This document shows, one piece after another, positions 2,816 to 39,725 of a stretch of 41,637 bases of DNA; the stretch's first letter is position 1; every line of letters starts with the position of its first letter. Where the stretch lies: positions 1 through 41,637 of IMG/VR virus record IMGVR_UViG_3300038455_000031, one strand, 5' to 3'. The position numbers and the translations under genes are program-made. The notes below the pieces were generated by a model that was not told where the DNA came from, did no database searches, and saw only the letters and a program-made list of their open reading frames with translations. Source of the DNA: a virus.

Positions 2816-2816
2816 T

Positions 2817-6538: not shown

Positions 6539-6546
6539 GGTGATCC

Positions 6547-6982: not shown

Positions 6983-6983
6983 C

Positions 6984-7190: not shown

Positions 7191-7422
7191 GAATTGCCTC
7201 CTTACGACATGGCTCATCCACGATTGCGAGATTATGCATCTTGATCAATATATCCGTGGATTGTTTTAATCGTCCTATATCTTCCTTGGTAGAAATAACG
7301 ATTAACAATAACGCCGTCACTATTCCAAGTAATGACGTCATCATGGTAAGTACTAATGCTCGGACGACACTCTCTTGCTGAATGTGCCCTCTAATCAGTT
7401 CCTCAAGCTGAGCTGACGTCAT
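7177..7422 (-). CDS. Single-span membrane protein, lysis-associated
   Basis: An 81-residue protein with one hydrophobic segment (about residues 21-44, ALVLTMMTSLLGIVTALLLIVIS) and a charged, helical C-terminus (TKEDIGRLKQSTDILIK). The layout, short N-terminal region, one span and helical periplasmic tail, fits an inner-membrane spanin or a holin partner. It lies between endolysin and the holin-like gene. The precise role cannot be chosen from sequence alone. Confidence 0.65.
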   Translation of the reverse strand: MTSAQLEELIRGHIQQESVVRALVLTMMTSLLGIVTALLLIVISTKEDIGRLKQSTDILIKMHNLAIVDEPCRKEAIRGNK

Positions 7423-7493
7423 CGGACCGTCTCGTATGAAAGTTCTTCACACTATAGATCCGTCCTTGTTTGTCAATCTTCAATACTCCTAAT

Positions 7494-18769: not shown

Positions 18770-18773
18770 GGAT

Positions 18774-18788
18774 ATAACACCGTGTTAG
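18774..18788. promoter_or_regulatory. Dispersed palindrome, copy 3
   Basis: ATAACACCGTGTTAG (outermost pair mismatched) lies in the 27-base gap between two leftward genes, four bases before the ATG of the lysozyme-domain protein, where it would mask the ribosome site. Confidence 0.65.
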
Positions 18789-18796
18789 ATAAGTAA

Positions 18797-19714: not shown

Positions 19715-20262
19715 GATATCCGCTCCATGATTTCTTTAATCAACTTTGGTGATACCCCCTTCGAACACCGACTGATTGTATCAGCAGTTTGTTGCACGTT
19801 CAGATACATCAATTCCTCAAGCTTGTGATAGTGTATCTCCACGTGCGGGATTATGTACTCCAGACATGTTATTACAATGTTGATATCGTCTAGATTGTCA
19901 TAGTTAACGCATAACACTGATGAATGCGTAGCGATTTTGGACAATGCCACGCCAAGTGCATTATTGTAACCTTCATGATATGCCTTAATCTCGTCTAAGG
20001 CGTCACGCACCTGCTCGATAGGTCGTAGTACAGCAAGGACGCGGAGTGTGGGGTACATGGAACACAACTGCTCGACATATAAAGCAAGCAAGCTATCCGC
20101 TACGCCAGCGGTGGCGTCATCATCGTATATTGATGCAATCTGCCTCCAACTGGTCCAATTCCTAGTTGGTTCATGATAGCAAATCGTATTCGTCGCCGCG
20201 TTGCAGACCGTTGCTAACCACGCCGTACGCGATCTAGGCAATCCGGTTATGAGATATGGCAT
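19705..20262 (-). CDS. Sulfotransferase-like P-loop protein
   Basis: A 185-residue protein beginning MPYLITGLPRSRTAWLA, which matches the 5'-phosphosulfate loop of PAPS-dependent sulfotransferases, followed by YHEPTRNW; later VLAVLRPIEQ resembles the 3'-phosphate region. The longer frame from 20286 overlaps the preceding gene and is not preferred. At this length it is shorter than cellular sulfotransferases (usually 250-300 residues), so activity is uncertain. Its place among virion genes suggests modification of a structural protein or host glycan, or simple reuse of the fold. Recognition is by motif only. Confidence 0.65.
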   Translation of the reverse strand: MPYLITGLPRSRTAWLATVCNAATNTICYHEPTRNWTSWRQIASIYDDDATAGVADSLLALYVEQLCSMYPTLRVLAVLRPIEQVRDALDEIKAYHEGYNNALGVALSKIATHSSVLCVNYDNLDDINIVITCLEYIIPHVEIHYHKLEELMYLNVQQTADTISRCSKGVSPKLIKEIMERISWR

Positions 20263-20266
20263 TATT

Positions 20267-20443
20267 TCATACCCATTTGAAGTCATACGGCCCAGGACCA
20301 GTACGGGTTAGGACCTGTCCTATGCTGCCATGACGAAGGATGTTTAGCAACATTGATGTATCGATGTGTAATTGGTAATGATTTAGCGCTCCTTGTTCGG
20401 TAAGTTCTGTTTTCTGTAGATCGATTAATCTCGTATCAGCCAT
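20267..20443 (-). CDS. Small hypothetical protein between nozzle and sulfotransferase-like gene
   Basis: A 58-residue frame whose ATG overlaps the stop of the nozzle gene by one base (TGATG) and which ends seven bases before the next start, so it fills the gap exactly. Sequence begins MADTRLIDLQKTELTEQGAL and ends in GPGPYDFKWV. Coupling and complete fill of the gap support it. Function unknown. Confidence 0.65.
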   Translation of the reverse strand: MADTRLIDLQKTELTEQGALNHYQLHIDTSMLLNILRHGSIGQVLTRTGPGPYDFKWV

Positions 20444-22428: not shown

Positions 22429-22435
22429 GATACCA

Positions 22436-23062
22436 TTACCTTGATGTTAGGTACGGATTGCGTGTTTTATTACTCGAAATCAATTGCATCCGTCCACGCG
22501 CATTTAGTTTCTCCGCTCGCGCGTCTTCAGAATTTCTTATGCATCCTTGTTCAGCGGCGAAGAACTTCACTGCCTTGCGAAATGGAATGGGGATGGCATC
22601 ATCCGCAGAACTTCCAAGAGCTAGTGGAAGTGGATATATAGCACATTCGAACTCGCATTCATAGAACATGTCTGGTATTGGAAAGAGCCATAGTTTTCCA
22701 AAGGCATTGCAGAAACTCGTAGGTGCTTGCTTATATGTCGGCACAGAACGTTCTACGGCAGAGAATTTGGCCCATGTTCTTGGTTTCAATGAGTATCTAA
22801 TCGTAGATGACCAAGTGAGCGATGCCTCGAACACGGATATGATACGCGTGTCGAGTGTTATCGTCTCACTATTTGGGATGAACGTGATGGAGGGGGTAGA
22901 TGTGGAGGAAATCAGCTCTCTACAACAGAGAGATAATTCAGCTACTGTATCCCTTCCTTCATTGACATAATCGACAATCTCCGCATCATCGACGATGTTG
23001 CGTTTGCTAACATCATTCAGAACACGACGCGTTCCTAGTACGTAATCGTCGATTATAGCCAT
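22436..23062 (-). CDS. Tail adaptor / head-completion protein
   Basis: A 208-residue protein with DDAEIVDYVNEGRDTVAELSLCCRE near the N-terminus and a middle part rich in beta strands (RYSLKPRTWAKFSAVERSVPTYKQAPTSF), then helical C-terminus with FRKAVKFFAAEQGC. This pattern and length match podovirus head-tail adaptors (P22 gp4, T7 gp11 kind). Location between coat and nozzle genes agrees. Confidence 0.78.
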   Translation of the reverse strand: MAIIDDYVLGTRRVLNDVSKRNIVDDAEIVDYVNEGRDTVAELSLCCRELISSTSTPSITFIPNSETITLDTRIISVFEASLTWSSTIRYSLKPRTWAKFSAVERSVPTYKQAPTSFCNAFGKLWLFPIPDMFYECEFECAIYPLPLALGSSADDAIPIPFRKAVKFFAAEQGCIRNSEDARAEKLNARGRMQLISSNKTRNPYLTSR

Positions 23063-23077
23063 CGTACGACATTTTTA

Positions 23078-23440
23078 TTAAACGAGATTTGGATCAACTG
23101 CGAAGTAGCTAGTGGACACTGTAGCAGTATCGGTGATGTTGCGGATGCGGACGTTGTATCCATCGGATGCTACGATGCCACCAGGCCATGCTCCATTGGC
23201 GAGATTTACCCAAGTTGAACCACTGCCAGCAGCACGAACCTCGATACCGACTTTAGCAGCGTATTCAACCATGTATAATCCTCGTGGGAAGATTAACACC
23301 GTCGCATCGGTTAGATTGCCTGTAGAAGTAACTGCACCGAACGGAGAACCAGCAGCACCGAATGCTACAGATTGACCAATGCCAATAGGCGCTGCACCGA
23401 TCGATACACCAGGGGTAATCGGGAATGGGGGATTTGTCAT
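23078..23440 (-). CDS. Possible capsid decoration or head-fibre protein
   Basis: A 120-residue protein, Gly/Ala/Thr-rich and beta-strand dominated (VAFGAAGSPFGAVTSTGN, GYNVRIRNITDTATVSTSYFAV). It follows the coat gene by 17 bases. Such small beta proteins next to the coat are often decoration proteins, but there is no firm family match. Confidence 0.6.
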   Translation of the reverse strand: MTNPPFPITPGVSIGAAPIGIGQSVAFGAAGSPFGAVTSTGNLTDATVLIFPRGLYMVEYAAKVGIEVRAAGSGSTWVNLANGAWPGGIVASDGYNVRIRNITDTATVSTSYFAVDPNLV

Positions 23441-23457
23441 CTACTTGCGTCCTTTAT

Positions 23458-24507
23458 TTACCAACCAGCGCCGCCAGTAACGTTAGATAGATATAGAGAT
23501 GAAGATGGTTTTTCGCACACGAACTCTGATCCGAGCAACATCACACCGACATAACCAACTTGGCCATTCGGCACCATGGAATAGAAACCTGTGAAGGTGA
23601 ATGCTAAATCATCGTGTACGTACAATTTCACGTACTTCGTATTCACCATGTACGCTTTGCCGACGGGGATGAATGGGTCATAGAAGATAGGAACTCCGCA
23701 TACTGATAATGCGGTGAAACCAGCGTTGGCAATATCACCAGCGAATGACGCTCCTGGGACCAACTGACGGGACTCAGTTCCAATCCAATCACCAGCGGCG
23801 ATTGCCCAATCTTGCGCTGATAGGAAGATAACATTGGGTGTCTCACCACCAGCGTAATGCGTGGCTTTCACAAGCATCTGAGCGAGATTGGCTCGTGCGT
23901 TGGAATTGACTGCAACACCAGTGGCGTATTTTTGGCCTTCCCACCATGTTGCGACACCGGATGCGCGTGTGATGCCACCATATGCTACAGCACTAGCACC
24001 AGCGTCCAACGCCATTGGTAAGCCGCCGACAATTTGATCTTTCGCAGCACCGCCATAGATACCCGTGGTGTAATCATTGTTGAATATTGCTTGTGACATC
24101 ACGGTCATGGAGACACGTTTAACACCCGCCATGCGTGCTTTCATCAACGGGACTACGGTGTGTTGTGCGCTAACCGCCGCTTCCATTCCAAGGAATGATA
24201 CCGGAACCATACCGAGTTTGACGTCAAATTGGGCATTCGTAATTCCAACAGGATTGGTAGGACGATCAAAAGATGCGTCATATCCAGCCCAAGAGAATGA
24301 TACCATTTCTTGGTATTGGACAGGGATGGTGATTTGAGAGATACCACCACTCACCCTCTCAGCATTAGCAAAGAACGCGGATAGTCCTGGCGTCGCTTGG
24401 CCGAATTGTACGGTAAGATATGGAGTGAACGCCCTACGAATTACTGAGGTGAGTTCGTCAAATACAGCCCCCGATGCGGGGACTATGCCAGTGCCAGAGA
24501 GGGGCAT
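23458..24507 (-). CDS. Major capsid protein, HK97-fold type
   Basis: A 349-residue protein directly downstream of the scaffold candidate. The order of features fits a coat protein: N-terminal helix (AVFDELTSVIRRAFTPYL), an E-loop-like strand region (ISQITIPVQYQEMVSFSWAG), a long spine-like helix (HTVVPLMKARMAGVKRVSMTVMSQAIF), and a beta-rich A/P-domain end (VCGVPIFYDPFIPVGKAYMVNTKYVKLYVHDDL). Fold assignment rests on position, size and pattern; no clear sequence family is named. Confidence 0.85.
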   Translation of the reverse strand: MPLSGTGIVPASGAVFDELTSVIRRAFTPYLTVQFGQATPGLSAFFANAERVSGGISQITIPVQYQEMVSFSWAGYDASFDRPTNPVGITNAQFDVKLGMVPVSFLGMEAAVSAQHTVVPLMKARMAGVKRVSMTVMSQAIFNNDYTTGIYGGAAKDQIVGGLPMALDAGASAVAYGGITRASGVATWWEGQKYATGVAVNSNARANLAQMLVKATHYAGGETPNVIFLSAQDWAIAAGDWIGTESRQLVPGASFAGDIANAGFTALSVCGVPIFYDPFIPVGKAYMVNTKYVKLYVHDDLAFTFTGFYSMVPNGQVGYVGVMLLGSEFVCEKPSSSLYLSNVTGGAGW

Positions 24508-24520
24508 GTGTGCTTGTCCT

Positions 24521-25039
24521 TTAGAATTTCATGGTCCTGAGTTGTCTATCCAACCAGCGATCGGGATTTGCGAATAATTCCTTAGCTGACTCCTTATCCG
24601 TGTCGCCCATTCCAACATCGAACACGGAACGCGTATCGTACGCGGGGATTTCGTCGTCCTTCCTACTAGGATATCGTCTTTCATATAATGCTTGTGCTGC
24701 ATCATACGATCCGATTTGTTCGCTTTTCATTAACGCTTCGATCTTCTCTATCCCGTCGTCTGCGTATCCTTCACGCTTAAGCCGCGCACGTTGCGTGTCA
24801 ATGCGCGTTTGGTATTCGGCAAGTTCTCGTGCTTCACGTTCGCGCTTTTGCTCTTCTTTGAATGAGGCGATTTCCGCTTTGACATCTCGCACAGCCTCGA
24901 TATGTGGGTCTACGGTGAAATCGTTTGGTGATAATTCCTTAGCGATCTCATATACCGTATCTCGATGCGATGACCGCATCATCTTGCGTAATAAAGCGCC
25001 GGCATTTTGTTCATACGTTAGGGGGGTATCGTCGGGCAT
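24521..25039 (-). CDS. Scaffold protein candidate
   Basis: A 172-residue highly charged helical protein (AEIASFKEEQKREREARELAEYQTRIDTQRARLKREG) located between portal and coat genes, the normal place for a scaffold. The basic helical C-terminus (DRWLDRQLRTMKF) could bind the coat. Acidic/basic helical composition and place support the call. Confidence 0.75.
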   Translation of the reverse strand: MPDDTPLTYEQNAGALLRKMMRSSHRDTVYEIAKELSPNDFTVDPHIEAVRDVKAEIASFKEEQKREREARELAEYQTRIDTQRARLKREGYADDGIEKIEALMKSEQIGSYDAAQALYERRYPSRKDDEIPAYDTRSVFDVGMGDTDKESAKELFANPDRWLDRQLRTMKF

Positions 25040-25042
25040 GGA

Positions 25043-25216
25043 TTATCGACCATCTCCAACGGGCTTGATTGACATCTTACCAGGACGGCCGATGTTAGAT
25101 GCAGTGATGACGTTAGGCGTGGTCATAAGTTCAGCGGATACGTCATGAACTTGGTTGATCTGTGCATCACCACTGATGGGTTCAGATGGCGATGGGAAGA
25201 GAATGTCCTTGCTCAT
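25043..25216 (-). CDS. Small protein in scaffold region
   Basis: A 57-residue frame, ATG overlapping the preceding stop by ATGA, ending four bases before the scaffold gene start. Sequence runs from MSKDILFPSPSEPISG to GKMSIKPVGDGR, with proline and little predicted secondary structure. Coupled spacing on both sides supports it. It may belong to capsid assembly; no family recognised. Confidence 0.65.
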   Translation of the reverse strand: MSKDILFPSPSEPISGDAQINQVHDVSAELMTTPNVITASNIGRPGKMSIKPVGDGR

Positions 25217-25563
25217 TGTGGGGAAGCCATCATTTGTTGTTGCTGTGGATTAGGCGACGGGCCAGCGGGCATTCCTGGGACTGGTGCTGCTCGGCTCGCT
25301 TGAGCAATTAGATCGCGCAATCCGGCGGCATCTAGTTGATTTGTAGAAGCGTCAGTCTTGAATACCTTGCTCAGCGCTTGTAGCGCTTTAACAATCGCAT
25401 CATACGCATCTGGTTGTGATTGATATATTTGAAGCTGCCCTTCTAGTAACGTCATAGCTTGACGAATAGAAGATGCTCCGGCGGCTAATTCGCCTTGTCC
25501 TTGAGGTTGAGAAAGTGCTCCAATACCACCAGGCGAGGGAGCCATGCCGCCGAGAGCATCCAC
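25213..25563 (-). CDS. Hypothetical assembly protein (Gly/Pro/Gln-rich ends)
   Basis: A 116-residue protein with GTG start and GGAG about ten bases before. Disordered N-terminus (MDALGGMAPSPGGIG), central helices (IRQAMTLLEGQLQIYQSQPDAYDAIVKALQALSKVF) and a Gln/Pro-rich end (SPNPQQQQMM). Lies between the micro-peptides and the small 57-residue gene. Composition suits a portal-proximal assembly factor or part of the scaffold. Confidence 0.65.
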   Translation of the reverse strand: MDALGGMAPSPGGIGALSQPQGQGELAAGASSIRQAMTLLEGQLQIYQSQPDAYDAIVKALQALSKVFKTDASTNQLDAAGLRDLIAQASRAAPVPGMPAGPSPNPQQQQMMASPQ

Positions 25564-25565
25564 GG

Positions 25566-25637
25566 TCAGCTACTCCACTTGCCAAGTGATTTACGTGATT
25601 TACGCCCCTTACGGGCTTTCTTCACGGTCTTCGGCAT
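25566..25637 (-). CDS. 23-residue Lys/Arg-rich peptide
   Basis: The 72-base frame starts at an ATG overlapping the preceding stop (TAATG) and encodes a strongly basic peptide beginning MPKTVKKARKGRKSRK. It ends three bases before the next gene. Such composition suggests nucleic-acid binding, for instance DNA compaction in the head, similar in kind to tiny packaging proteins of some small phages. The coupled arrangement is the main evidence; very short frames can arise by chance. Confidence 0.5.
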   Translation of the reverse strand: MPKTVKKARKGRKSRKSLGKWSS

Positions 25638-25675
25638 TACTTACGGCCCCTACGGCCCCGACGACGGCGCGCCAT
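25637..25675 (-). CDS. 12-residue Arg-rich peptide
   Basis: The 39-base frame encodes MARRRRGRRGRK and is preceded by GGAG about nine bases upstream. Its TAA stop overlaps the ATG of the following basic peptide. Eight of twelve residues are Arg or Lys, far beyond chance for this genome's neighbours. Possibly a DNA-condensing micro-peptide or a leader for the next frame. Confidence 0.4.
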   Translation of the reverse strand: MARRRRGRRGRK

Positions 25676-25705
25676 TGTGTTGTCTCCATCGTTTAAGTGT
25701 GACAT

Positions 25706-25720
25706 CTAACACAGTGTTAG
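25706..25720. promoter_or_regulatory. Dispersed palindrome, copy 4 (perfect)
   Basis: CTAACACAGTGTTAG, a perfect 15-bp palindrome in the 117-base gap after the portal gene, 30 bases upstream of the first micro-peptide start on the minus strand. Confidence 0.72.
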
Positions 25721-25792
25721 ATAACGTCGCCTATCGACATGCGAGAGAAGACAAGGCAACGTACTCTATAAGTATAAGACATAATGTGTTGA

Positions 25793-27460
25793 TCATCCAC
25801 GCGTTGACTGTTGTGCGGATTGCGATTGGGTCTCCAGCTGTTGTGCGTTACGAATGCGCTCCTTTAAGGACACGATTAGCTGATCCTTGTTAGGTACTGA
25901 AATCTCAGACAATAGCGCCACTCCATCAATCACCTGGCGAGTGTGCAATTCAAACAGTTTGTCTTCAATTTCTTCCAAGAATACCGGTGATGTGGAATGT
26001 GCATCTACTTCAAGGTAATAGTCATAGTCGAATTGCCCGAGGAGAAATCTATCTTCTCCAGCATCGTCTACTCGGTAGACTGTCTTATCTGTCTTCTGTT
26101 TAGCTTTGAATAATACATCACCAGCACGTGCTATCTGAGGTTCTAGGGATAGTGCTGCGTCACGAATAGGACCAGCGGACATACGAGATAATAGTGTCGC
26201 ATGAGACCGAGAGCGGACACCGGTCTCACCTTTGCCTTGCAAGAGATCGTTCAGCCAGAATTGCGTGGCAATCATCTCCTCTAACTTTTTGTATTCATCG
26301 TATACATCTATCGGCAACGGTGGGGTGATGTCTTGTACCTTTGCAGTAGCGGTCTCGTTAATCCATATAGCACCAGGAGTATTGATTACCTTCTTCACTT
26401 CTTCAGGATCATCCATTGCGCCTAAAAGTGCAAATGAGTGATCCACGTTCAAGTCTTGCAATCGCCATATCTGTTCCACTCGTTCGTTAATTCTGTCTTG
26501 TAATAACCATGCGCGTTGCGGAATGCATGTGCCATACGCATATCCAGGGCGTTCAAATGGAACTACATGGAAGTATGGCTGATGTTTTGGATAGAATGGA
26601 TTAACTCGTTTATACTTACCACGTAGGATGATGTCGGGTTCGATGAATAAGAATTGTGAATAATCACCACGTCCTTCATCACGTTCATCGTCCCATATCC
26701 ATATCTTATGTAGAAGCAATGCGTCATGGACCGTGTTCCGTCGGTAGGGATTGAACGCGTTGCCTGGCCAATCCACATTACCACGCACTGTCGGTGTGAC
26801 TTGAGATAAGACAATTCTTCCAACTGTTGTGGCGAGTGTCATGCCATCATCAGCTTGACGATCGCGTGCCATACGACGGAGAGATTTGTCCAGTTCCTCT
26901 TCATTAGGAAGTCCACGGATTGCGCGTGCTACTTCATGTTTATCAACTACGCATGTATGAACGAATGCCTCCTGATCGGATATGTCTAGCACATCATCAC
27001 GATATAGAGACATTTCGGTGGGAAGAACGATGCGTGGTTGGATGGAGTTGCTGGATTTTATATCCACGACACCGAAACAATTGGATAGGATCGTACCCAA
27101 CTTCACTGCGGTAGCGACAATATCCGCCATTGATGTTGACTTGTAGGAAGAATTTAACGCCCTCGTCGCTATTGACGCACGCTTGACTGCTGCGATGTTT
27201 GATGAGTCTACTGGACTGATGGTTAGTCTGACATTCTCTTTAGAGTGTAAGAATGATGTCAGCTTGTCTGTGTTGGTTGCGAGTAAGTTGTATTGCGCAG
27301 GTGTTGGGTCGATCTCCTTCTTACCATGCTCGTAGTATGCCATAGCAGTGCGATAGAACTCAACACGATTGTTTAATCCCTCTCTACATTTCTGAACTAA
27401 ATCGAATAAGAATTGTTCTGTTTTATGCTTGTTTCTAGCATTACCGCTTGGTATGAGCAT
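25793..27460 (-). CDS. Portal protein
   Basis: A 555-residue protein right after the terminase/zinc-ribbon genes. N-terminal helical region (TEQFLFDLVQKCREGLNNRVEFYRTAMAYYEHG) followed by sequence with DKLTSFLHSKENVRLTISP, a mixed middle part and GTCIPQRAWLLQDRINERVEQIWRLQ, a stem-like helix, matching podovirus portals. It would form the dodecameric ring for DNA entry. Starts at ATG 20 bases within the preceding gene's end. Confidence 0.85.
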   Translation of the reverse strand: MLIPSGNARNKHKTEQFLFDLVQKCREGLNNRVEFYRTAMAYYEHGKKEIDPTPAQYNLLATNTDKLTSFLHSKENVRLTISPVDSSNIAAVKRASIATRALNSSYKSTSMADIVATAVKLGTILSNCFGVVDIKSSNSIQPRIVLPTEMSLYRDDVLDISDQEAFVHTCVVDKHEVARAIRGLPNEEELDKSLRRMARDRQADDGMTLATTVGRIVLSQVTPTVRGNVDWPGNAFNPYRRNTVHDALLLHKIWIWDDERDEGRGDYSQFLFIEPDIILRGKYKRVNPFYPKHQPYFHVVPFERPGYAYGTCIPQRAWLLQDRINERVEQIWRLQDLNVDHSFALLGAMDDPEEVKKVINTPGAIWINETATAKVQDITPPLPIDVYDEYKKLEEMIATQFWLNDLLQGKGETGVRSRSHATLLSRMSAGPIRDAALSLEPQIARAGDVLFKAKQKTDKTVYRVDDAGEDRFLLGQFDYDYYLEVDAHSTSPVFLEEIEDKLFELHTRQVIDGVALLSEISVPNKDQLIVSLKERIRNAQQLETQSQSAQQSTRG

Positions 27461-28034
27461 CGCGTTTGGCTTTCATGTCGTGTATGTCATTAACGTAGGC
27501 GCTATCCCTGGGCGATATATTATTGCGCGCGTGATTAGTGATAGCATCGAACCTCTGTTTTGCCCCTTCTTGTGCAGCGTCCAATGCTGAGTTGCCCACA
27601 CCGTCAGCCACCATCTGTTGCCTAAGGGACTCAAGTGGTATATTGCTAACATCGTGCATAAACGATGCTGTCGGATTTTGGTCACTAGCGCCGAAGAAGG
27701 CTTCGGTCATTCCTGGTTCATACGCTGGAATGGCAGCGATATCTCCTTCACGAGAATTCGTATTTAAGTCCGTCATGCCGCACTCACGCGATACGACTTC
27801 CTGTGCGAAGTCTATTACGTCGTATTTAGACATTCTAGAGAATTGCTCTTGAATTTCCTTCCTCTTAGATCTACGCTTCGTATGCACGTGCGGAGCGGTT
27901 ATGGCTTTCTTTGGGCGTGTTTTCTTAGCATGTGACGTACATTCACCATTAGGGCATATTACATATGTCATCTCGTCGAATGAGTCGAAGCGAATGTTAC
28001 ATTCATCGCATATATAAGTTCGCAATATCGCCAT
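27441..28034 (-). CDS. Zinc-ribbon protein between terminase and portal
   Basis: A 197-residue protein. The N-terminus has a FmdB-like zinc-ribbon: RTYICDECNIRFDSFDE with a second pair CPNGEC near residue 27. The middle is basic (PHVHTKRRSKRKEIQEQ) and the remainder acidic or helical with a charged end. It probably assists packaging or portal assembly, going by its location; unknown otherwise. Confidence 0.75.
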   Translation of the reverse strand: MAILRTYICDECNIRFDSFDEMTYVICPNGECTSHAKKTRPKKAITAPHVHTKRRSKRKEIQEQFSRMSKYDVIDFAQEVVSRECGMTDLNTNSREGDIAAIPAYEPGMTEAFFGASDQNPTASFMHDVSNIPLESLRQQMVADGVGNSALDAAQEGAKQRFDAITNHARNNISPRDSAYVNDIHDMKAKRDAHTKR

Positions 28035-28049
28035 GGTATTGGGTCCTCT

Positions 28050-29903
28050 TTATCCCTCTCTATGCCAGCGAGAGGCATAGGCCGCACCTTTGGAAGTGAC
28101 CATTTGTCTATACGCGTCACGTTGAGGAATGGATTTGAGATATTCTTCGACATGATATTGCACCATGTTGTTCGATGGCGTCTTGGATAGTTTAGCTGTC
28201 CGCTCAGTTTCGGATGCTAGCGTTCTAGCCTCTCGGATTAGCTTCTTGCGGTAGTGATCGTGCCACGCTTGTACGGCCATTCCCATAGACATAACGCGAT
28301 CGTCGTAATGATTAGATGACGCTTCTATTGATCCTGTATCATCGTCGCGGATCAACGTACGCATCTCACGCAATAATGGAACAGAATTGATCTGTAACAT
28401 GCCTCGTTCGAACGCACCGATATATAATGCCATCATGCGTTCTTTTGTTTCTTGCGTTGTCTTCCAGTGGTATGCCGGTGATCCATACAATGAGTCAGGT
28501 CTAGTAAAGAGGTACCAACGAACGGATGATACCGTCTTGCGTATTACATCATCAACTTTATCGTCGTATAACTCCACCTTGCCTTGATGTAATAATGTCT
28601 TAATCATTTTCATTTCGTCAAACACAGTCATACCAGGACCATTTACTTCTAAATTAACTATCGCTCGGTATACCCCTGCGAGATGAAGTACGATCCATGC
28701 GAACTGGTATGTTGGAATTCCGTGCTTGGCGAATTCTGCTACTTGAATTAGTTTATCAGCATAGCATCGTAGTACTTGAACAGCTCCGGCATCTCTAGAA
28801 GGAGATGAACCGTAACATGGATCAGCGCCGATTACGTAATACCCATGCGGGGATGGCTCTTCGAATATACGTAGATCGGCGTTATCGACGGTTGATACAG
28901 GATGTAACGTACATGATAAGAAATCGTCACCGGCGGAATGACGGTATGCTTTGAATGATGTTCGTAATGCCGGCGACACGACTTGCTCTAATCTAGTATT
29001 GTCAAAGATTTGACTCCCTGACATGATGAAAGCTTCTTCATCATTGAAGGGGAATTCTTGGTGCATTATCTTGGGATCGGATATTTCCTCCTCTGACTTC
29101 CATCTGTACCATGCAATTTGTTCTGGTATTATCGTATATCCCCATTCAGATTTCACGTTATCTATTTGTTTTTGCTCATACTCAGAGTACGCCTCACTCA
29201 TGTATTGAGCAAATCTAGGATCAGACTTTGGAATGCGTAATGTCTCCTTCCTCCACCATGGAACGAATATGTATTTCTTAACGGATGATATTTTCGCTGT
29301 TTGACATGCTTCGTAATAGGAATTGAAGGAGTTCGGTGTAGACTCGAATATGTATAACCTATTCTCAGCAGTCTCAGCGAGTGACGACATTAATGAGGCG
29401 AGACCGACTTGATCTCCCCAGAATGCGCATTCAGTGCCATGAATGAAGTTGAGCCCGACTGACCGGCCGAGATTTGGATTGTTCCTCTTCGTACCCGCCA
29501 CGAGGAATGCAAGGCGTGATCCTCGTGCAAACATCATGAGGGAACGATTGTCCTTCACTAATGGCTGTTTGTAGTTCTTGGGTAGAGAGGCGAGAAATCT
29601 ACGCAATATCGCTTGGAAGTTCTCTCTTGTTGGTGCGTCTTTGTCTGTTACAATCGCTCCTTGTAATGCGTCGTGATAGAAACACCAAAATAGATCTAAT
29701 GCGAGAGTGATGGTGGATATCCCACCTTGTCGGTGTTTTAGGATGTAGAAACATCTGACTCCATCGTCCAATCCAGATGCGATTTCATCTAATACATATG
29801 ACTGAGTTCCCCATAGAACATCACGTAGACGTACCCTGCCTAATTCCTTAGAGTCGATTTGGAGTTTATCTATGAAGTCATAGAATGCATTAGACCACCG
29901 CAT
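28050..29903 (-). CDS. Terminase large subunit
   Basis: A 617-residue packaging motor with the classical adenine-binding and Walker A region FYILKHRQGGIST (Lys56 to Thr64), Walker B-like FIHGTECAFWGD near 150, a coupling motif (FESTPN) and the C-terminal RNase H-like nuclease: VIGADPCYG near 357-365, NLEVNGPG near 410 and the Asp-rich NHYDDRVMSMG near 560. All the acidic metal-binding positions seem present. No separate small terminase is clearly recognised nearby. SD GAGGA before ATG. Confidence 0.93.
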   Translation of the reverse strand: MRWSNAFYDFIDKLQIDSKELGRVRLRDVLWGTQSYVLDEIASGLDDGVRCFYILKHRQGGISTITLALDLFWCFYHDALQGAIVTDKDAPTRENFQAILRRFLASLPKNYKQPLVKDNRSLMMFARGSRLAFLVAGTKRNNPNLGRSVGLNFIHGTECAFWGDQVGLASLMSSLAETAENRLYIFESTPNSFNSYYEACQTAKISSVKKYIFVPWWRKETLRIPKSDPRFAQYMSEAYSEYEQKQIDNVKSEWGYTIIPEQIAWYRWKSEEEISDPKIMHQEFPFNDEEAFIMSGSQIFDNTRLEQVVSPALRTSFKAYRHSAGDDFLSCTLHPVSTVDNADLRIFEEPSPHGYYVIGADPCYGSSPSRDAGAVQVLRCYADKLIQVAEFAKHGIPTYQFAWIVLHLAGVYRAIVNLEVNGPGMTVFDEMKMIKTLLHQGKVELYDDKVDDVIRKTVSSVRWYLFTRPDSLYGSPAYHWKTTQETKERMMALYIGAFERGMLQINSVPLLREMRTLIRDDDTGSIEASSNHYDDRVMSMGMAVQAWHDHYRKKLIREARTLASETERTAKLSKTPSNNMVQYHVEEYLKSIPQRDAYRQMVTSKGAAYASRWHREG

Positions 29904-29913
29904 CGCAATGTCC

Positions 29914-30654
29914 TCATCTAAATCGCCATATGTTAAAGCGCATCGTCCAATTCGCTAATGTAGTCCAGTGCCAAGTACCATCCGTTGGGTCTAAAACTCT
30001 GAGTCCATTCCATATGTTTGGAATTCGAAACGTAATCGTCGTAGTCGTGGCGGACGTACACTGAATGCCGGCATTTTCAGCGCCGTTAAGAGAATAGACG
30101 GCATCCGGGCATACATCATTTTCATTATAGCCGAATTGGGCGATTACACACACAAGGTCGATGCGCCAATAATGTGGAATAACGCCAAGGCCGTGCGTTA
30201 TGACTATCTGTGCCCCAACGACTGGAGCGATGTCATCGCTTATGTATACCTGCGGGCGATTTGCAGGGCTTATCAGATATGCGGAGGAGGAGCTTGTTAG
30301 TACGATGTTTACTGGAATGCCCTGTGCGATATCATCTGGAAGTAAGTCTTCTACAATGCCCAATGTTTGACGTTTTATGGTGACTACGCCCCCTCCATTG
30401 ATCTCTATCGTAGTAGCTCCCGTGTTGTTGTGAGCGGGGATTACCAATAATGATAATGGATAGGTCAGTGGTTGTGAATTGGTGTCAATTGTTATGACTA
30501 ATTCATTGGTAGTACCTAGATCGGATACCACTCGTGGGATGTAATGTGGATTTGCGAGTATGTTCGATAGATAATTGAAGTCATTATCTAACAAGCCAGC
30601 AAGCTGTGGAGATGTAGTAACATGTTCGAATTTGTTTGGCACGTCGATATACAT
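29914..30654 (-). CDS. Beta-rich hypothetical protein, perhaps head fibre
   Basis: A 246-residue protein dominated by beta strands. The middle part (LLVIPAHNNTGATTIEINGGGVVTIKRQTLGIVEDLLPDDI) and VIPHYWRIDLVCVIAQFGY are typical of phage structural proteins with repeated strands. It lies between the HNH gene and terminase. Probably a virion fibre or decoration, but not assignable. Confidence 0.65.
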   Translation of the reverse strand: MYIDVPNKFEHVTTSPQLAGLLDNDFNYLSNILANPHYIPRVVSDLGTTNELVITIDTNSQPLTYPLSLLVIPAHNNTGATTIEINGGGVVTIKRQTLGIVEDLLPDDIAQGIPVNIVLTSSSSAYLISPANRPQVYISDDIAPVVGAQIVITHGLGVIPHYWRIDLVCVIAQFGYNENDVCPDAVYSLNGAENAGIQCTSATTTTITFRIPNIWNGLRVLDPTDGTWHWTTLANWTMRFNIWRFR

Positions 30655-30655
30655 A

Positions 30656-31006
30656 TCAGGACACCGTCATATGTTCGAGATTGACGCAGTATACATTCCC
30701 ACACATACGTCTAAATTGACGGCATGGTCTTGTGGGATCTAGTTCAATGCCCGCTAATACAGCGATTGTTCGTATTGGAGATATACGCATGTTCTGAAAC
30801 TTCATTCTAGGAATTCCTTTCCTATCAAATGGACCAATCCAGTTATGACATGATGTGTCATTTATTATTCTAATGCGTGCTTGTAAATATTCATTAACAC
30901 TATCACGTAATGTTTGATTGTATCTTAATTCTTCAAAAAAGCACGCGATGCGCTCGGTGCCAGGGCGGGTAGTGTCTTGCCAGGGGTTGACAGGTATGAG
31001 GTTCAT
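30656..31006 (-). CDS. HNH endonuclease
   Basis: A 116-residue protein. CHNWIGPFDRKGIPRMKFQ followed by CRQFRRMCGNVYCVNLEHM matches the HNH fold of small phage nucleases, with Cys pair for zinc and the final CVN-x2-H. HNH proteins next to terminase often cleave at packaging or act as homing enzymes; here it begins the leftward arm. Start ATG follows GAGGG, which lies in a small hairpin (31012-31024). Confidence 0.85.
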   Translation of the reverse strand: MNLIPVNPWQDTTRPGTERIACFFEELRYNQTLRDSVNEYLQARIRIINDTSCHNWIGPFDRKGIPRMKFQNMRISPIRTIAVLAGIELDPTRPCRQFRRMCGNVYCVNLEHMTVS

Positions 31007-31011
31007 GTGCT

Positions 31012-31118
31012 ACCCTCGTAGGGTGGTTGCGGGCGGGATATATATACTATCACATGCTCGTGTGAGGGTATATATAATATAAACAGCATGCGGTCGAGGT
31101 CGAGGGAGGGCGGCAGGG
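31012..31118. promoter_or_regulatory. Divergent control region between arms
   Basis: An AT-rich stretch separates the leftward and rightward arms. It has an imperfect inverted repeat with arms TATATAC (31041-31047) and GTATATA (31068-31074) enclosing CACA/TGTG, and a rightward -10-like TATAAT at 31073-31078 with a weak ATCACA -35 18 bases upstream. A hairpin ACCCT-CGT-AGGGT at 31012-31024 covers the ribosome site of the HNH gene. I infer divergent promoters here, not proven. Confidence 0.55.
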
Positions 31119-31124
31119 GTGAAA

Positions 31125-31139
31125 CTAACACTGTGTTAT
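31125..31139. promoter_or_regulatory. Dispersed palindrome, copy 5
   Basis: CTAACACTGTGTTAT, one outer base off perfect symmetry, 18 bases before the ATG of the first rightward gene and about 45 bases after the likely -10 element, so it would sit in the mRNA leader. Confidence 0.7.
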
Positions 31140-31157
31140 ATCCGAGGGGAGCATTCC

Positions 31158-31559
31158 ATGGCTAATGTCAAGTTGTATCCATTCACATCTAATGAATTCA
31201 TTTCATCATCTGGAATCAATCTAAAGCATAAGATCGAATATGAAGCATTCGATGAAGAAAGTGTTAAATCTCATGCATTAATGGCGTTACCGATGTTGGG
31301 TAAATTCTCTTCTATTGTGTGCATTCCTAGTGGTGGTAGGAGGGTGGGGAAGTATTTGGAGGCATATTCTACGCATGATTATGACGATCCCACATTGATC
31401 ATTGATGATGTATGGACAACAGGAGCGCATATGTATAGATATGCGAATGATCTCGGTCATTACATCGGATTGGTGATATTCTATCGCAATTATCCAGGAT
31501 ATCCACTAGCACCATGGTGTAAAGCGTTATTCACCTGTCATGAAGACATGGAGCAATGA
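31158..31559 (+). CDS. Phosphoribosyltransferase-like protein
   Basis: A 133-residue protein with the type I PRTase PRPP-binding signature LIIDDVWTTGAH at residues 80-91 and an upstream PSGGRRVGKYL (57-67) that fits the second substrate loop. Family enzymes are usually 170-210 residues, so this is a minimal form; substrate could be orotate, a purine or something non-nucleotide. The start at ATG after GAGGGGA is preferred over an ATG 39 bases upstream that lies inside the palindrome. It is the first gene of the rightward arm. Confidence 0.8.
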   Translation: MANVKLYPFTSNEFISSSGINLKHKIEYEAFDEESVKSHALMALPMLGKFSSIVCIPSGGRRVGKYLEAYSTHDYDDPTLIIDDVWTTGAHMYRYANDLGHYIGLVIFYRNYPGYPLAPWCKALFTCHEDMEQ

Positions 31560-31560
31560 A

Positions 31561-31791
31561 ATGCGTTTATCATTAGAACGTATAGCTAAATCGTTAGTGC
31601 TCACCACACCGAAATCGGAATGGGTACGGATAGACGATGGTTTATATAATGTAGGAGTGGTGTTTAGTGTATGTAAGGACAATAAAGATGTTAGTATTGT
31701 AATCATATGCAAATTCAAAGTGGATGAAGATGATTTGCCAATGAATGTAGAAGTAGAAGATGTTTATATAAACGGGAGAGCATTAGATTGA
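31561..31791 (+). CDS. Hypothetical protein following the PRTase-like gene
   Basis: A 76-residue protein with strands and acidic C-terminus (VDEDDLPMNVEVEDVYINGR). The ATG is one base after the previous stop, with GGAG eleven bases upstream; a longer frame overlapping the PRTase gene is less likely. Function unknown; likely co-translated. Confidence 0.65.
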   Translation: MRLSLERIAKSLVLTTPKSEWVRIDDGLYNVGVVFSVCKDNKDVSIVIICKFKVDEDDLPMNVEVEDVYINGRALD

Positions 31792-32139
31792 ATACATTGC
31801 GTGATGTCGAAATATTTTTGGGGAACATGAGGTGTGGGGCGCGCACATATGCATTGACATTGACCCACCAATGCATTGGCCATGCGCATGTGTTACACAT
31901 ATAAGCCATTCCAACATATGACAGTGGAATGGAAGCACGGTGGATGTTGTTATTGTACCCCATATTGGGGAGTCTCATAAATGGGGATATTATTGTACCC
32001 CATATTAGGATATTATTGTACCCCATATTAAGATGAACAAGAAATGCGTTCGCGTGATAATGAATGATAACAGAAATTAAATTTGGCATACTCAATGGCA
32101 GAGGCGCTGAAGCATTAGGCTGGCCGCTAGGAGGTAAGC
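31792..32139. other. Palindrome- and iteron-rich non-coding gap, candidate origin
   Basis: There is no convincing gene in this 348-base gap. It has perfect palindromes CCAATGCATTGG (31868-31879) and ATGTGTTACACAT (31888-31900), a hairpin CCATTCCA/TGGAATGG (31906-31932) and three iterons described separately. A tiny 30-codon frame (32064-32156) ends inside the next gene and could be a leader. The concentration of symmetry suggests a replication origin or a master regulatory site. Confidence 0.5.
31951..32029. repeat. Three iterons TATTGTACCCCATATT
   Basis: Identical 16-base copies start at 31951, 31991 and 32014 (spacing 40 and 23). The first extends to CCCCATATTGGGG, a near inverted repeat. 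Iterons of this kind bind replication initiators or repressors. Confidence 0.85.
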
Positions 32140-32361
32140 ATGACGGATTTCTCTGACCCAAGCACTGACGCTCTTACAGAGCGTCGGTCTTGGCCGCACT
32201 GCCGGACTTGCAAGTTTTTCATGCCCGACAGACCAGAGCAACAAGACACACGGGGCGCATGCCGGCGTTTCCCTCCACTTTTCACACTGAATGACCAACC
32301 AATATGGCCCGTGGTTTATGGCTGGAGTTGGTGTGGGGAATGGAAGAATTCAGAGCAATGA
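32140..32361 (+). CDS. Cys-rich small protein, paralogue of the gene at 6785
   Basis: A 73-residue protein with a strong GGAGG site. The arrangement CRTCKFF, GACRRFPP, WPVVYG and CGEW equals that in the lysis-cassette protein at 6785, with four conserved cysteines. Metal binding is likely; function unknown. The gene is bounded by two copies of AACAGAAATTAAATTT (32069 and 32414), so it may have been inserted as a unit. Confidence 0.8.
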   Translation: MTDFSDPSTDALTERRSWPHCRTCKFFMPDRPEQQDTRGACRRFPPLFTLNDQPIWPVVYGWSWCGEWKNSEQ

Positions 32362-32802
32362 CCAAAAACGAAGAGTTCTTCATGCCGGACCCAATATGGA
32401 CCGATCGAGAATGAACAGAAATTAAATTTCAACTTCCCCTCCCCCTCTCCCCCCACATCCCACGCACCATCCCATCAATATTTCAACCTCTTACCTCGAT
32501 TTTGGCCTCGTTGAACACCTCACACACCATCGTCATCATTGACGCAAAACTACGTCATCATAGAATGGAAATGGCGGCATCTCAGGAGCGAAATAGCGTC
32601 ATGATGGAAGGTGAAGACCGGGCGATCTGCCACCTTCACGTAGCCGGCTTTACTTACCCACGGGGTCTGCAGCTTACGCTTACTGGCGCGTCAGCGGGCC
32701 GCTGTCCGTGTAGGGCAGTCACCTTCCATCACTCTTAATATATTACCTTTTAATCCATTGTTCCAGGCGCTTGACTGCATATGTGGATTGCAAACATTAG
32801 AG
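32362..32802. other. Non-coding region, with possible 18-codon frame at its start
   Basis: About 440 bases without a convincing gene. A tiny frame at 32358-32414 (18 residues) overlaps the preceding stop by ATGA and is uncertain. The rest holds a poly-pyrimidine run (32432-32460), the structured segment at 32603-32730, and then the terminator of the leftward gene. Confidence 0.6.
32603..32730. ncRNA. Candidate structured RNA or DNA element
   Basis: GATGGAAGGTGA (32603-32614) and TCACCTTCCATC (32719-32730) are exact complements enclosing 104 bases. Inside are CAGCG-GGC-CGCTG and a GTGAAG/CTTCAC pair that competes with the outer stem. No gene lies here. The strand is unknown and it may act as DNA; no known RNA family is recognised. 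Confidence 0.45.
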
Positions 32803-32805
32803 GGC

Positions 32806-32832
32806 AAAAAAAGAGCCATCCGAAGATGGCTC
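32806..32832 (-). terminator. Intrinsic terminator of the leftward gene
   Basis: On the minus strand GAGCCATC-TTCG-GATGGCTC is followed by TTTTTTT: an 8-bp stem with stable UUCG tetraloop and a seven-T run, starting nine bases after the stop codon. A textbook Rho-independent terminator. Confidence 0.93.
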
Positions 32833-32841
32833 ATGGAGACC

Positions 32842-33777
32842 TTATGCGCGCTTACGTCGCACTACAGTAGGCATGTGCTCTTTGACCACGTCAACGAGTA
32901 ACTTCGCAATCTCCGCATCTTCACCCCCGAACGGCCGCGGATTGCCGTTATCGTCCGCATAGCTCTTGCCATTGATATGGTCGATCAGGCGAATAGCGAG
33001 CAAAGCGAACGTCCCGACTTCAACGTTCTGCTGCGTGGTTTCCTTTGCGGGTCTCTGCGCACGCACTCTAACAACCCGTTCGATACCTAGTTGCTCACAG
33101 ATGTACGTGTCGAGCGATCCCGTCTTTTCGCCCATCTTGTCACGCGCAACGCTGTCATAGATACGTTCCTCATGACGGAGCGTAGTAGGCGTGATTTCTA
33201 CATCATCTCTGCCGATTAAGAACGCACCGAACGCCAGTCTAAAACGCCGACGCATTTCGTTCGCCGCACCTTCGCCTCCAATATCAACACGTCTATTGAC
33301 GTAGTGCGAATGGGTGAGCGGCATTTTCTCTTCTAAAAAGCGCGTCCAGGAGTAGCTGTCCTTGCCTTTGCGGCCAGGGACGTATCCAAGGGCCTCCGCA
33401 GCCCGCGCACGAGCCCAGTTAGGCTCACTGGCTAGTGCATCGCGGATAGCGCCGATCAGCGATACAACGGCCTGCTTGGTGTTCACGCCGGCCGATCCGA
33501 GTGCATCGACTGCTGCCGCTCCTGCACGATCATAGACATCAACCGGCCACATGTCTATAATGTGACGTAGCGCGCTAGCCTTGATATCTGCATCGATCTT
33601 AAGCGTGGCGAGCAAATGCTGGCAGCGATCCAACGAAGGGATACCCTCCGCTTTGCATCGCGTCACAAATGCGTCGATCGCGTTCTTACGTTCGCCGTCT
33701 GTGACCGCATGATCAGCGATTACGTATATAAGTTTCGTCGCAATGTCGATGAAGTCGTCATTGTAAGCTTTAGACAT
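32842..33777 (-). CDS. Lone leftward protein of unknown function, candidate regulator or moron
   Basis: A 311-residue protein, starting at ATG after GGAG; a longer frame to 33813 lacks a site. It has a helical N-terminus (DDFIDIATKLIYVIADHAVTDGERKNAIDAF), central basic parts (RRFRLAFGAFL, LRHEERIYDSVARDKMG) and a basic C-terminus (VVRRKRA). No HTH or enzyme motif stands out. It is transcribed against the surrounding rightward arm from its own -35/-10, ends at an intrinsic terminator, and looks richer in GC than neighbours. This is the layout of an autonomously expressed moron or a regulator. The dispersed palindrome lies just beyond its promoter. Confidence 0.8.
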   Translation of the reverse strand: MSKAYNDDFIDIATKLIYVIADHAVTDGERKNAIDAFVTRCKAEGIPSLDRCQHLLATLKIDADIKASALRHIIDMWPVDVYDRAGAAAVDALGSAGVNTKQAVVSLIGAIRDALASEPNWARARAAEALGYVPGRKGKDSYSWTRFLEEKMPLTHSHYVNRRVDIGGEGAANEMRRRFRLAFGAFLIGRDDVEITPTTLRHEERIYDSVARDKMGEKTGSLDTYICEQLGIERVVRVRAQRPAKETTQQNVEVGTFALLAIRLIDHINGKSYADDNGNPRPFGGEDAEIAKLLVDVVKEHMPTVVRRKRA

Positions 33778-33825
33778 CCATCTTTCTCCATTTCCTATGA
33801 TGATCACCATCAATCATCAATACGG

Positions 33826-33854
33826 AGTATGCCACTACCACCGCACACTGTCAA
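33826..33854 (-). promoter_or_regulatory. Sigma70-type promoter for the leftward gene
   Basis: On the minus strand TTGACA (33854-33849), a 17-base spacer and CATACT (33831-33826), 49 bases before the start codon. Perfect -35, moderate -10. Confidence 0.75.
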
Positions 33855-33860
33855 GAGGAA

Positions 33861-33875
33861 ATGATACCGTGTTAG
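33861..33875. promoter_or_regulatory. Dispersed palindrome, copy 6 (weak)
   Basis: ATGATACCGTGTTAG matches the family best copy at 13 of 15 positions. It sits between the -35 elements of the two back-to-back promoters (33854 and 33901), as expected for an operator controlling one or both. Confidence 0.55.
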
Positions 33876-33900
33876 TTTTATCGACCGCAAAAGTTAGCAC

Positions 33901-33929
33901 TTGACAAGAGTGCGAATGTGTGATATATT
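33901..33929 (+). promoter_or_regulatory. Sigma70-type promoter for the rightward early genes
   Basis: TTGACA at 33901-33906, 17-base spacer, TATATT at 33924-33929. Near consensus. It would start RNA at about 33936 and read through a leader of some 335 bases into the small-gene operon. Confidence 0.85.
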
Positions 33930-34271
33930 CCTTCTCATGACACAATGAGATGGAGTACGGAGGTGGAGAGGTGTGGAGACAGCACGCTATCGAGTTGTCG
34001 ATCAAACATTCGCCTAGGATAATATGGGTCTCGTTCATATACAATCGGTATCATTTCTCACTATACCCCCCGCATGAGCACAGCGTTTGTATTGCTTGCG
34101 TGTTGGCTGGTGAGATATTAAGTGAAAGAGAATATAATGTTGATACCGTTCATTCGCTTTCTATCACGTGCGTGTGAGATATTAAGTGAGCATAACAGCG
34201 TTGCAAAATATTCATTGGTATGATAAAAGAAAAAGATCTATATCATAATGCACGAAAGGATGGTGAGTTTC
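33930..34271 (+). other. Long leader of the early operon
   Basis: About 340 bases after the promoter with no convincing gene. It contains the direct repeat GTGAGATATTAAGTGA at 34110-34125 and 34174-34189. A 75-codon frame (33950-34177) has no ribosome site; a 28-codon frame starting ATG at 34138 ends at 34224. I count neither as a gene. Confidence 0.5.
34110..34189. repeat. 16-bp direct repeat in the early leader
   Basis: GTGAGATATTAAGTGA occurs at 34110-34125 and 34174-34189, 64 bases apart (about six helical turns), which would place two bound proteins on the same DNA face. Confidence 0.8.
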
Positions 34272-35885: not shown

Positions 35886-36116
35886 ATGCCTCTTACTAAA
35901 CGACAGCGTGAGGCGCTATTCTGGTGGTCTAAAGGCAAGTCATGCTGGGATACGGGCAAAATCATTGGCCGTTCTGAGCATGTCTGCAACTACCACCGGC
36001 GAGCAATACGAGCCCGTTATCACTCATCGGTGATGGTGCAATGCTTGTTACGGGCTCTGAAGGCGGGGGATGTAACCATAGATGAACTGTTGGATGAGGA
36101 TCATGGTGATGAATGA
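35886..36116 (+). CDS. Single-domain LuxR/GerE-type HTH regulator
   Basis: A 76-residue protein that consists almost only of a LuxR-type helix-turn-helix: LTKRQREALFWWSKGKSCWDTGKIIGRSEHVCNYHRRAI, with the invariant Glu, Gly and His-like positions as in GerE. There is no sensor domain, so it would act constitutively as a DNA-binding early regulator. The ribosome site is not strong. Next gene overlaps by 14 bases. Confidence 0.78.
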   Translation: MPLTKRQREALFWWSKGKSCWDTGKIIGRSEHVCNYHRRAIRARYHSSVMVQCLLRALKAGDVTIDELLDEDHGDE

Positions 36117-37558: not shown

Positions 37559-37572
37559 AAGAGGAGGTAAGA

Positions 37573-37911
37573 ATGCCTCGGAACACATCATGGACAGACA
37601 TAAAAGTAGCACGACTACGTGCGTTATGGGGTACAACGACGACGACAGTGATTGCTGAGCGATTGGGCGTATCGGTGAATGCTGTTATGAGTAAAGCGCA
37701 TAGATTAGGATTGTGGAGAAGGAATAAAGAGGTAACATATGCGTACATCGTTTCAGTTTCGTTCAATCCTGAAGATTTCGCTGGTGACGTGCCGACGTGT
37801 GAGGATGTTCAAGATCTTGTAGCCTCAACGTGCCTAAGTAGTTGCCAAGGCGACGAAAAGTGGCAACGCATGATGCACCGCGTTGCCACGGTTACGATTA
37901 AACGGTGCTAA
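37573..37911 (+). CDS. GcrA-like / Myb-type HTH protein
   Basis: A 112-residue protein, ATG five bases after GAGGAGGT. Residues 4-45 contain WTDIKVARLRALWG, then AERLGVSVNAVMSKAHRLGL, the GcrA-type arrangement of Trp, Leu-rich helix and V-x-RNAV-x-KxHRLGL recognition helix, here with SVNAV-MSKAHRLG. Bacterial GcrA is an alphaproteobacterial cell-cycle co-activator that works with sigma70 at GANTC-methylated promoters; phages also carry related Myb-like HTH proteins. The rest, with three cysteines, is unknown. It could hijack host transcription. Confidence 0.75.
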   Translation: MPRNTSWTDIKVARLRALWGTTTTTVIAERLGVSVNAVMSKAHRLGLWRRNKEVTYAYIVSVSFNPEDFAGDVPTCEDVQDLVASTCLSSCQGDEKWQRMMHRVATVTIKRC

Positions 37912-38663: not shown

Positions 38664-39725
38664 ATGAAATATCATGTAACGCGTTGTACAATATCACCAA
38701 CGACGGATGATACGTTACCTTGGTATGATTATTCGACATTGAATGAAATAGATCAATGCAATAGAAAAGGAAGCCTACTTTATATAGCCAAGAAACAAAT
38801 GCCATTTGTCGATCGTGAGGTGGCATTGGAGGCGGGGACAGTTGTGCACGAATTCTGCGCAGCGTGGAATGGTTGGATGTTGCCACCACAAGCGTTAGAA
38901 TGCGTGTTTGGCACCACACGATTTGCGGAAATGCAAAATATATGCGAGCAATCGCCTGGCATCGACGATATTAATAGGCGATTGCTATTCGCATTATCGA
39001 CCATACATACGTCGGATTACTACGATGAGCCCAATAATGATCGAAGAACGATAAAAAATATTGAAGAGGTATGCAGACATTGGTCTATGCTTCAGACTAA
39101 GGAGCATGACATTGTTGCAGTAGAAATGCCATTCGACATGACAATATCAATCGAATATACCACCAGCAAATTGGTCCATGGTAGCAGGCCAATGCCTGTG
39201 ACGCACATGGAAAGTCGGGAGTTGACATTTCGCTATGTGGGACGTATTGACTTAGTGAAGTATAACGTTCATGGCGAACTACTTCCACTGGATTATAAGA
39301 CAACTGGATTGTATATAAACGAAACATATTGGATACAGCATCTGCTATCTCCACAGACCACTGGATATCAAATGGCGTTACGATGTTTATATCCGGATGG
39401 CGCTATAGCAAACTATGTGGAAGTAGAAGCACTACGAATTCCACTTATCAAATCTGGCACTACGCCATCAACAGAACGTAGGCCATTCGAACGAGGGCCA
39501 TCACATATCCAACACTTCCTTGACTTCTGCATACGCAACATAGAAATAGCACAGTGTTATGCATCCGAACCGTGGAATGCTCCAATGAGGCATTCACATT
39601 GTAATGCGTATATGAAGCCATGTCAGTTTGTGGAATTGTGCGTCAATCCAGTGGAAGAGGATAGAGAAAGTATAGTGAAAGAGCAGATGATTGACCGTAA
39701 TTGGGATCCATTGAGGAAGGAGTGA
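38664..39725 (+). CDS. PD-(D/E)XK nuclease with Fe-S cysteines (Cas4/RecB-like)
   Basis: A 353-residue protein. The nuclease core is in GRIDLVKY (Asp near 194) and LDYKTTG (Asp209, Lys211), followed by QTTGYQMAL. Cys32 in NEIDQCNRKG and C-terminal Cys313, Cys320 and Cys326, C-x6-C-x5-C, are laid out like a Cas4/AddB iron-sulphur cluster; Cys298 is extra. Together with the downstream Sak4-type ATPase and ssDNA-binding protein this is the classic phage recombination/replication set. ATG 38664 is chosen by AAGG spacing. Confidence 0.9.
   Translation: MKYHVTRCTISPTTDDTLPWYDYSTLNEIDQCNRKGSLLYIAKKQMPFVDREVALEAGTVVHEFCAAWNGWMLPPQALECVFGTTRFAEMQNICEQSPGIDDINRRLLFALSTIHTSDYYDEPNNDRRTIKNIEEVCRHWSMLQTKEHDIVAVEMPFDMTISIEYTTSKLVHGSRPMPVTHMESRELTFRYVGRIDLVKYNVHGELLPLDYKTTGLYINETYWIQHLLSPQTTGYQMALRCLYPDGAIANYVEVEALRIPLIKSGTTPSTERRPFERGPSHIQHFLDFCIRNIEIAQCYASEPWNAPMRHSHCNAYMKPCQFVELCVNPVEEDRESIVKEQMIDRNWDPLRKE

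Follow-up and report, generated by a model that had tools for sequence, protein, structure and literature searches.

Regulation by a phage repressor that acts at dispersed operators is the logic of C1 in P1 and of c in phiC31. MrpR is a known dispersed-site repressor that binds a 15-bp element (SPBRE) in intergenic regions of SP-beta (PMC10516654), and it combines a solved, inactive tyrosine-recombinase fold with proven binding. Many copies of a short site across a replicon are also found for KorB/ParB of RK2, with 12 KorB sites on RK2, and for the stoperators of mycobacteriophages, while lambda-type immunity regions place a palindromic site between back-to-back promoters and a lone gene opposite the early operon. 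A further precedent is pid of phage P22, which encodes 86 aa in the late region and has a host effect on the dgo operon (PMC3573128).

By analogy, pid is the nearest described parallel to the gene analyzed here, an ORFan of 311 aa (P0001). Both are single ORFans set against their neighbors, each with its own 3′ Rho-independent terminator (PMC3573128), and the absence or replacement in relatives that has been shown for pid is suggested here. Unlike pid, the ORFan is 311 aa long, belongs to the early arm, has a strong promoter and lies beside a palindrome of the phage. The features shared with SP-beta are a protein of ~310–320 aa and a short element dispersed between genes (PMC10516654), but a similarity to the recombinase fold of MrpR is not demonstrable for P0001. 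The back-to-back promoters, the palindrome between them and the lone gene opposite the early operon recall the lambda-type immunity region, from which the locus differs in having one weak site off both promoter cores, no helix-turn-helix (HTH) repressor and no integrase that could be found. As in RK2 and the mycobacteriophages, a short site is repeated across the genome, but P0001 is neither ParB-like nor a known repressor, and the binder of the palindrome is represented here by candidates only.

The window, by which we mean the whole stretch of DNA that was analyzed, is an entire IMG/VR virus record of 41,637 bases. Its late arm is transcribed leftward (terminase, 28050–29903; portal-like protein, 25793–27460; major capsid protein, 23458–24507), and the early arm has the opposite, rightward direction, extending from ~31.1 kb as far as the right end and resuming at the left end, with genes for an exonuclease, a Sak4-like protein, a helicase and a PolA-type DNA polymerase. 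The terminase and capsid assign the phage to a large uncultured group, whose nearest named members, MW202753 and MW202825 (Manatee Spring), are 40–45% identical and whose terminase is encoded by at least 591 IMG/VR stretches. Positions 18644–33070 are matched at 99.93% identity by a 14,427-base contig (IMGVR_UViG_3300038454_000014), and none of its ten substitutions falls within its covered portion of the ORFan. Profiles for tyrosine and serine integrases (PF00589 and PF00239) were silent in the window, a record that may be incomplete. Elsewhere in the genome, a single ORF (2796–5312) joins a uracil-DNA-glycosylase domain, a 3′–5′ exonuclease and a family A DNA polymerase, and the late arm ends with a glycosyl hydrolase family 46 (chitosanase family) domain (7494–8183) that possibly belongs to a lysis enzyme. 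The protein encoded at 31161–31559, without a match in Pfam, carries a PRPP-binding-like motif (LIIDDVWTTGAH), and a long intergenic region holds three 23-nt direct repeats, (G)GATATTATTGTACCCCATATTA, at 31945–32030.

The ORFan occupies positions 32842–33777 of the minus strand, from an ATG at 33777 to a TAA stop ending at 32842 (the longest possible reading, from a TTG at 33813, would give 323 aa), and a ribosome-binding site, GGAG, can be read on the same strand at 33786–33789, 8 nt upstream of the ATG. An intrinsic terminator with an 8-bp stem, a UUCG loop and a U run is predicted on the minus strand at 32813–32832 (GAGCCATC-TTCG-GATGGCTC-TTTTTTT, read from 32832 to 32813). Upstream lies a leftward sigma-70-type promoter with an extended −10 (33826–33854, minus strand; TTGACA at 33854–33849, 17 nt, CATACT at 33831–33826, TG before the −10), back to back with a rightward early promoter of the same type (33901–33929, plus strand; TTGACA at 33901, 17 nt, TATATT at 33924–33929, TG before the −10). 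The original prediction had described a 311-residue leftward gene with its own promoter and UUCG-loop terminator and a divergent partner promoter at 33901, and each of these elements was located where it had been placed; the description of the gene as lone also holds, as it is the only leftward gene accepted in the early arm. With a promoter and a terminator of its own, both predicted from sequence, the gene shows one of the traits expected of a moron. Further along the rightward strand, at 34112–34190, a direct repeat (GAGATATTAAGTGA) occurs twice in the presumed leader of the early transcript.

The divergent promoter pair is real and non-random. A strict promoter rule (at least 5/6 positions at the −35, at least 10/12 overall and TG before the −10) identifies exactly two sites in the 41.6-kb genome, both of them members of this pair, and 0.59 such promoters are expected by chance per random genome of the same dinucleotide frequencies. 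A divergent strict pair appeared in 0 of 200 such random genomes, a figure that serves as a guide and not as a p-value because the rule was set after the sites were seen.

Of the 30 genes compared, the ORFan has the highest GC (54.3%) and GC3 (57.7%), and its codon-usage score is negative, a deviant composition that agrees with the earlier impression that it is GC-richer than its neighbors. The GC maximum of the genome (936-bp windows) begins at 32596, and the GC-richest stretch, 32596–33777, covers the ORFan together with a flanking inverted repeat. Only the coding part looks foreign, because the promoter segment (33780–33930) has the ordinary GC of the phage. This composition suggests acquisition, probably from a GC-richer source. 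Just past the terminator, the GC-rich segment 32602–32731 has a perfect 13-nt inverted repeat (TGATGGAAGGTGA / TCACCTTCCATCA) at its borders, and its minus-strand RNA folds better than shuffled sequences (z −2.7), without a match in Rfam.

The ORFan is absent from all relatives searched, whose early arms are unrelated to this one, and an opposite-strand ORF of at least 150 aa was found within the early arm of none of the eight relatives in the strand comparison, which covered those with a clear-cut two-arm layout. Its absence is weak evidence because other early-arm proteins are also without a match there: among the terminase relatives, the terminase has 103 matches and the capsid 53, and none of eight other early-arm proteins, including the polymerase, has any. 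A search for early-arm relatives by way of the DNA polymerase returned only contigs that are 22–28% identical, with neither ORFan nor palindrome in the stretches examined, and no empty site, i.e., the locus without the ORFan, was found among the relatives examined.

P0001 is without a match among the families of Pfam, PHROGs, NCBIfam and PADLOC, and the family searches recognized neither an HTH nor another DNA-binding domain of the kind that a CI-type repressor would carry. No tblastn match at E values up to 10 was obtained in 50,697 phage and 72,556 plasmid records, no homolog was found in IMG/VR except in the 99.93%-identical contig, and none appeared when 31 terminase-relative viruses and 9 genomes were searched over their whole records. 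In 754 genomes (369 gammaproteobacterial and 385 alphaproteobacterial, class names taken from the titles of the records used as centers) the distant matches are at chance level, and alignments of those from the first class led us to judge them unrelated. The predicted pI is near neutral (7.7). AlphaFold, run without homologs, gave mostly helical, uninterpretable models (pLDDT 41 at full length, 49 when limited to residues 1–137), and a fold search with the N-terminal model (residues 1–137), which is too poor for the purpose, found no match. Two resemblances gained no support. Residues 194–230 (ITPTTLRH...DTYICEQLG) resemble an integrase box by eye alone; against a tyrosine-recombinase profile built from 30 integrases P0001 scores 1.1 bits, a value that 37 shuffled sequences out of 2000 and 11 unrelated ORFs out of 759 also reach; ~2% of shuffles and 1.4–4% of unrelated ORFs score at least as high. 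A similarity to HEAT repeats (alphaRep, E = 3e-4) was set aside because the value arises as a sum over six target repeats, with single-stretch i-Evalues of 4–51.

The palindrome between the two −35 boxes, TGATACCGTGTTA, is a true member of a discrete, phage-specific family of eight sites with the consensus ATCTAACACNGTGTTAGAT, and lies at 33862–33874, 1 nt from where the original prediction had put it. The family is non-random. Copies of TAACACNGTGTTA are in excess in the genome (31 two-strand matches to TAACACTGTGTTA with up to three mismatches vs. 11.1 expected), and a weight matrix sets the eight sites apart from all remaining sequence. When the matrix is derived from the remaining seven sites, the 33862 site scores 16.5, the best non-member reaches 10.7 and 0.06 such sites are expected per genome, although within the family its score is the second lowest. 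The other copies are upstream of the ORF at 1113–1508 (1048–1060), inside the DNA polymerase gene (4706–4718), 4 nt before the start of the ORF at 13951–13595 (13956–13968), 5 nt before the start of the ORF at 18769–16700 (18775–18787), in an intergenic region of the late arm (25707–25719), downstream of a promoter-like sequence (31049–31078) and upstream of the ORF at 31161–31559 (31126–31138), and inside the exonuclease gene (39547–39559), the last with the lowest score of the eight. Five of the eight are found in the 100 nt that precede a start codon, a zone covering 12% of the genome (binomial p ~0.001, for a gene set of our own choice). Such a set would supply the dispersed element that characterizes MrpR-like repressors.

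The palindrome family is the phage's own, because the terminase relatives hold no set and the alphaproteobacterial genomes fall below the control: single near copies occur in 2 of 31 terminase-relative virus records, a set in none of them, and a near copy was found in 1 of 289 alphaproteobacterial genomes vs. four for a reversed control pattern, by which a host origin was rejected for these genomes. Among contigs fetched by pattern, only the unrelated contig L144 has a comparable set, with seven copies at 6523–9567, mostly of a sister palindrome (CTAATACNGTATTAG); several lie near gene starts, and one ends 4 nt before an ATG. A second unrelated contig, L129 (70.9 kb), has three tandem repeats very like the palindrome of the window (3242–3317) inside an ORF (2606–3637) with an HTH-like N-terminus, and these look like iterons within an initiator gene. 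Rfam searches gave no match.

If each transcript begins 7 nt beyond its −10 box (leftward at 33819, rightward at 33936), the 33862 palindrome is centered at ~−49 relative to the leftward start and ~−68 relative to the rightward one, and it therefore overlaps neither core promoter and is nearer to the ORFan's own. Operators of the CI type would be expected to overlap an early promoter core. The position found here would be no less fitting for a factor that activates or modulates the leftward promoter than for one that represses the early promoter. Three early-arm proteins, all encoded on the plus strand, resemble DNA binders, two of them well and one weakly: a GcrA-family protein (37570–37911; Pfam GcrA, E = 1.4e-7, above the cut-off), a GerE/LuxR-type HTH protein (35886–36116; Pfam GerE, E = 4.5e-5, just under the cut-off) and a weakly ribbon-helix-helix-like protein (641–949; PHROGs and Pfam, below the cut-off). 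At present the GcrA, the GerE or possibly the ribbon-helix-helix-like protein would be a better candidate for the palindrome binder than P0001. GcrA is typical of Alphaproteobacteria, and the GcrA-family protein presumably hints at a host from that class.

Several roles for the ORFan can be weighed against these observations. The proposal that it regulates the early operon and perhaps binds the dispersed palindrome would make it a master repressor that represses the rightward promoter, controls its own and acts at the seven other copies through a fold undetectable by sequence. The layout argues for this, as the only two strong promoters of the genome are divergent with a true family site between them, and the eight dispersed sites are mostly promoter-proximal; MrpR is also ~320 aa and is below 25% in its identity to proteins of related fold (PMC10516654), and in the terminase relatives searched neither the ORFan nor the palindrome family occurs, the two being found together here. 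Against the proposal stand the lack of any detected DNA-binding domain, the near-neutral pI of the protein, a site off both promoter cores that is among the two weakest of the eight, a recombinase resemblance that scores no higher than chance allows, the failure to find an integrase of either the tyrosine or the serine type, and the better candidates for the binder. We regard the repressor as unlikely, though with an appreciable chance that it keeps because the layout is right, MrpR is itself divergent in sequence and the gene and palindromes co-occur. Its boldest form, a master regulator with a DNA-binding fold undescribed in phages that reads eight dispersed 13–19-bp palindromes and sets a divergent early switch without an integrase, seems to us improbable.

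The strong host-type promoter, the lack of a detected integrase and the presence in the phage of a PolA-type polymerase and a helicase, which many virulent phages also encode, would also be compatible with an early host-takeover or counter-defense protein, transcribed immediately by the host polymerase, needed on some hosts and unlinked to lysogeny, with the palindrome controlling the early promoter only. Such genes usually run with the early operon, though, and P0001 matches neither PADLOC nor known Pfam or PHROGs families, which leaves this role doubtful. That the palindromes are RNA hairpins or a replication or partition element, with the 33862 copy incidental to the ORFan, would accommodate the two copies located 4–5 nt before start codons, the two well inside genes, the ability of the repeat to fold as a hairpin and the related tandem repeat inside an ORF of L129. 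Since neither predicted transcript (starts at ~33819 and ~33936) includes the 33862 palindrome and the enrichment upstream of starts points to gene control, we give this explanation very little weight. The moron that the original prediction named as its main alternative fits somewhat better than the switch, which is not established. In its favor are the promoter and terminator of its own, the extreme GC and GC3 with the negative codon-usage score, an orientation within the early arm unlike that in the eight clear-cut relatives, the lack of a homolog in phages, plasmids, IMG/VR (the near-identical contig aside) and 754 genomes, regulatory sites that are the phage's own with the 33862 copy nearest the leftward promoter, the other DNA-binding candidates encoded, and the precedent of P22 pid, a moron that is likewise a divergent ORFan ending in a terminator at its 3′ side (PMC3573128). 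Against it, an operator flanked by divergent early promoters is the arrangement classically seen in immunity regions, the foreign-looking composition is confined to the coding part, the lack of the gene in the terminase relatives is weak evidence and no empty site turned up.

On balance, and with somewhat more confidence than doubt, we favor an accessory moron-type unit on a host sigma-70 promoter that is probably gated by the phage's own palindrome-binding regulator. The ORFan would form a self-contained unit, with its own sigma-70 promoter, ribosome-binding site and terminator, set against its early-arm neighbors and transcribed by the host RNA polymerase independently of the early and late operons. 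A phage DNA-binding protein other than P0001 would act at the palindrome just upstream of the leftward −35, and would probably tune the ORFan together with the genome-wide regulon of eight sites, while the role of the product may be host-directed rather than regulatory.

The locus is a compact example on which a genetic switch might be distinguished from an accessory gene when the phage is uncultured and its repressor is unrecognizable by sequence. The family of eight sites provides a ready-made footprint, and the phage protein that binds it is likely a global regulator. Should the ORFan bind the palindromes, it would represent a new class of phage repressor; should it not, it would be an accessory gene under the control of the phage.
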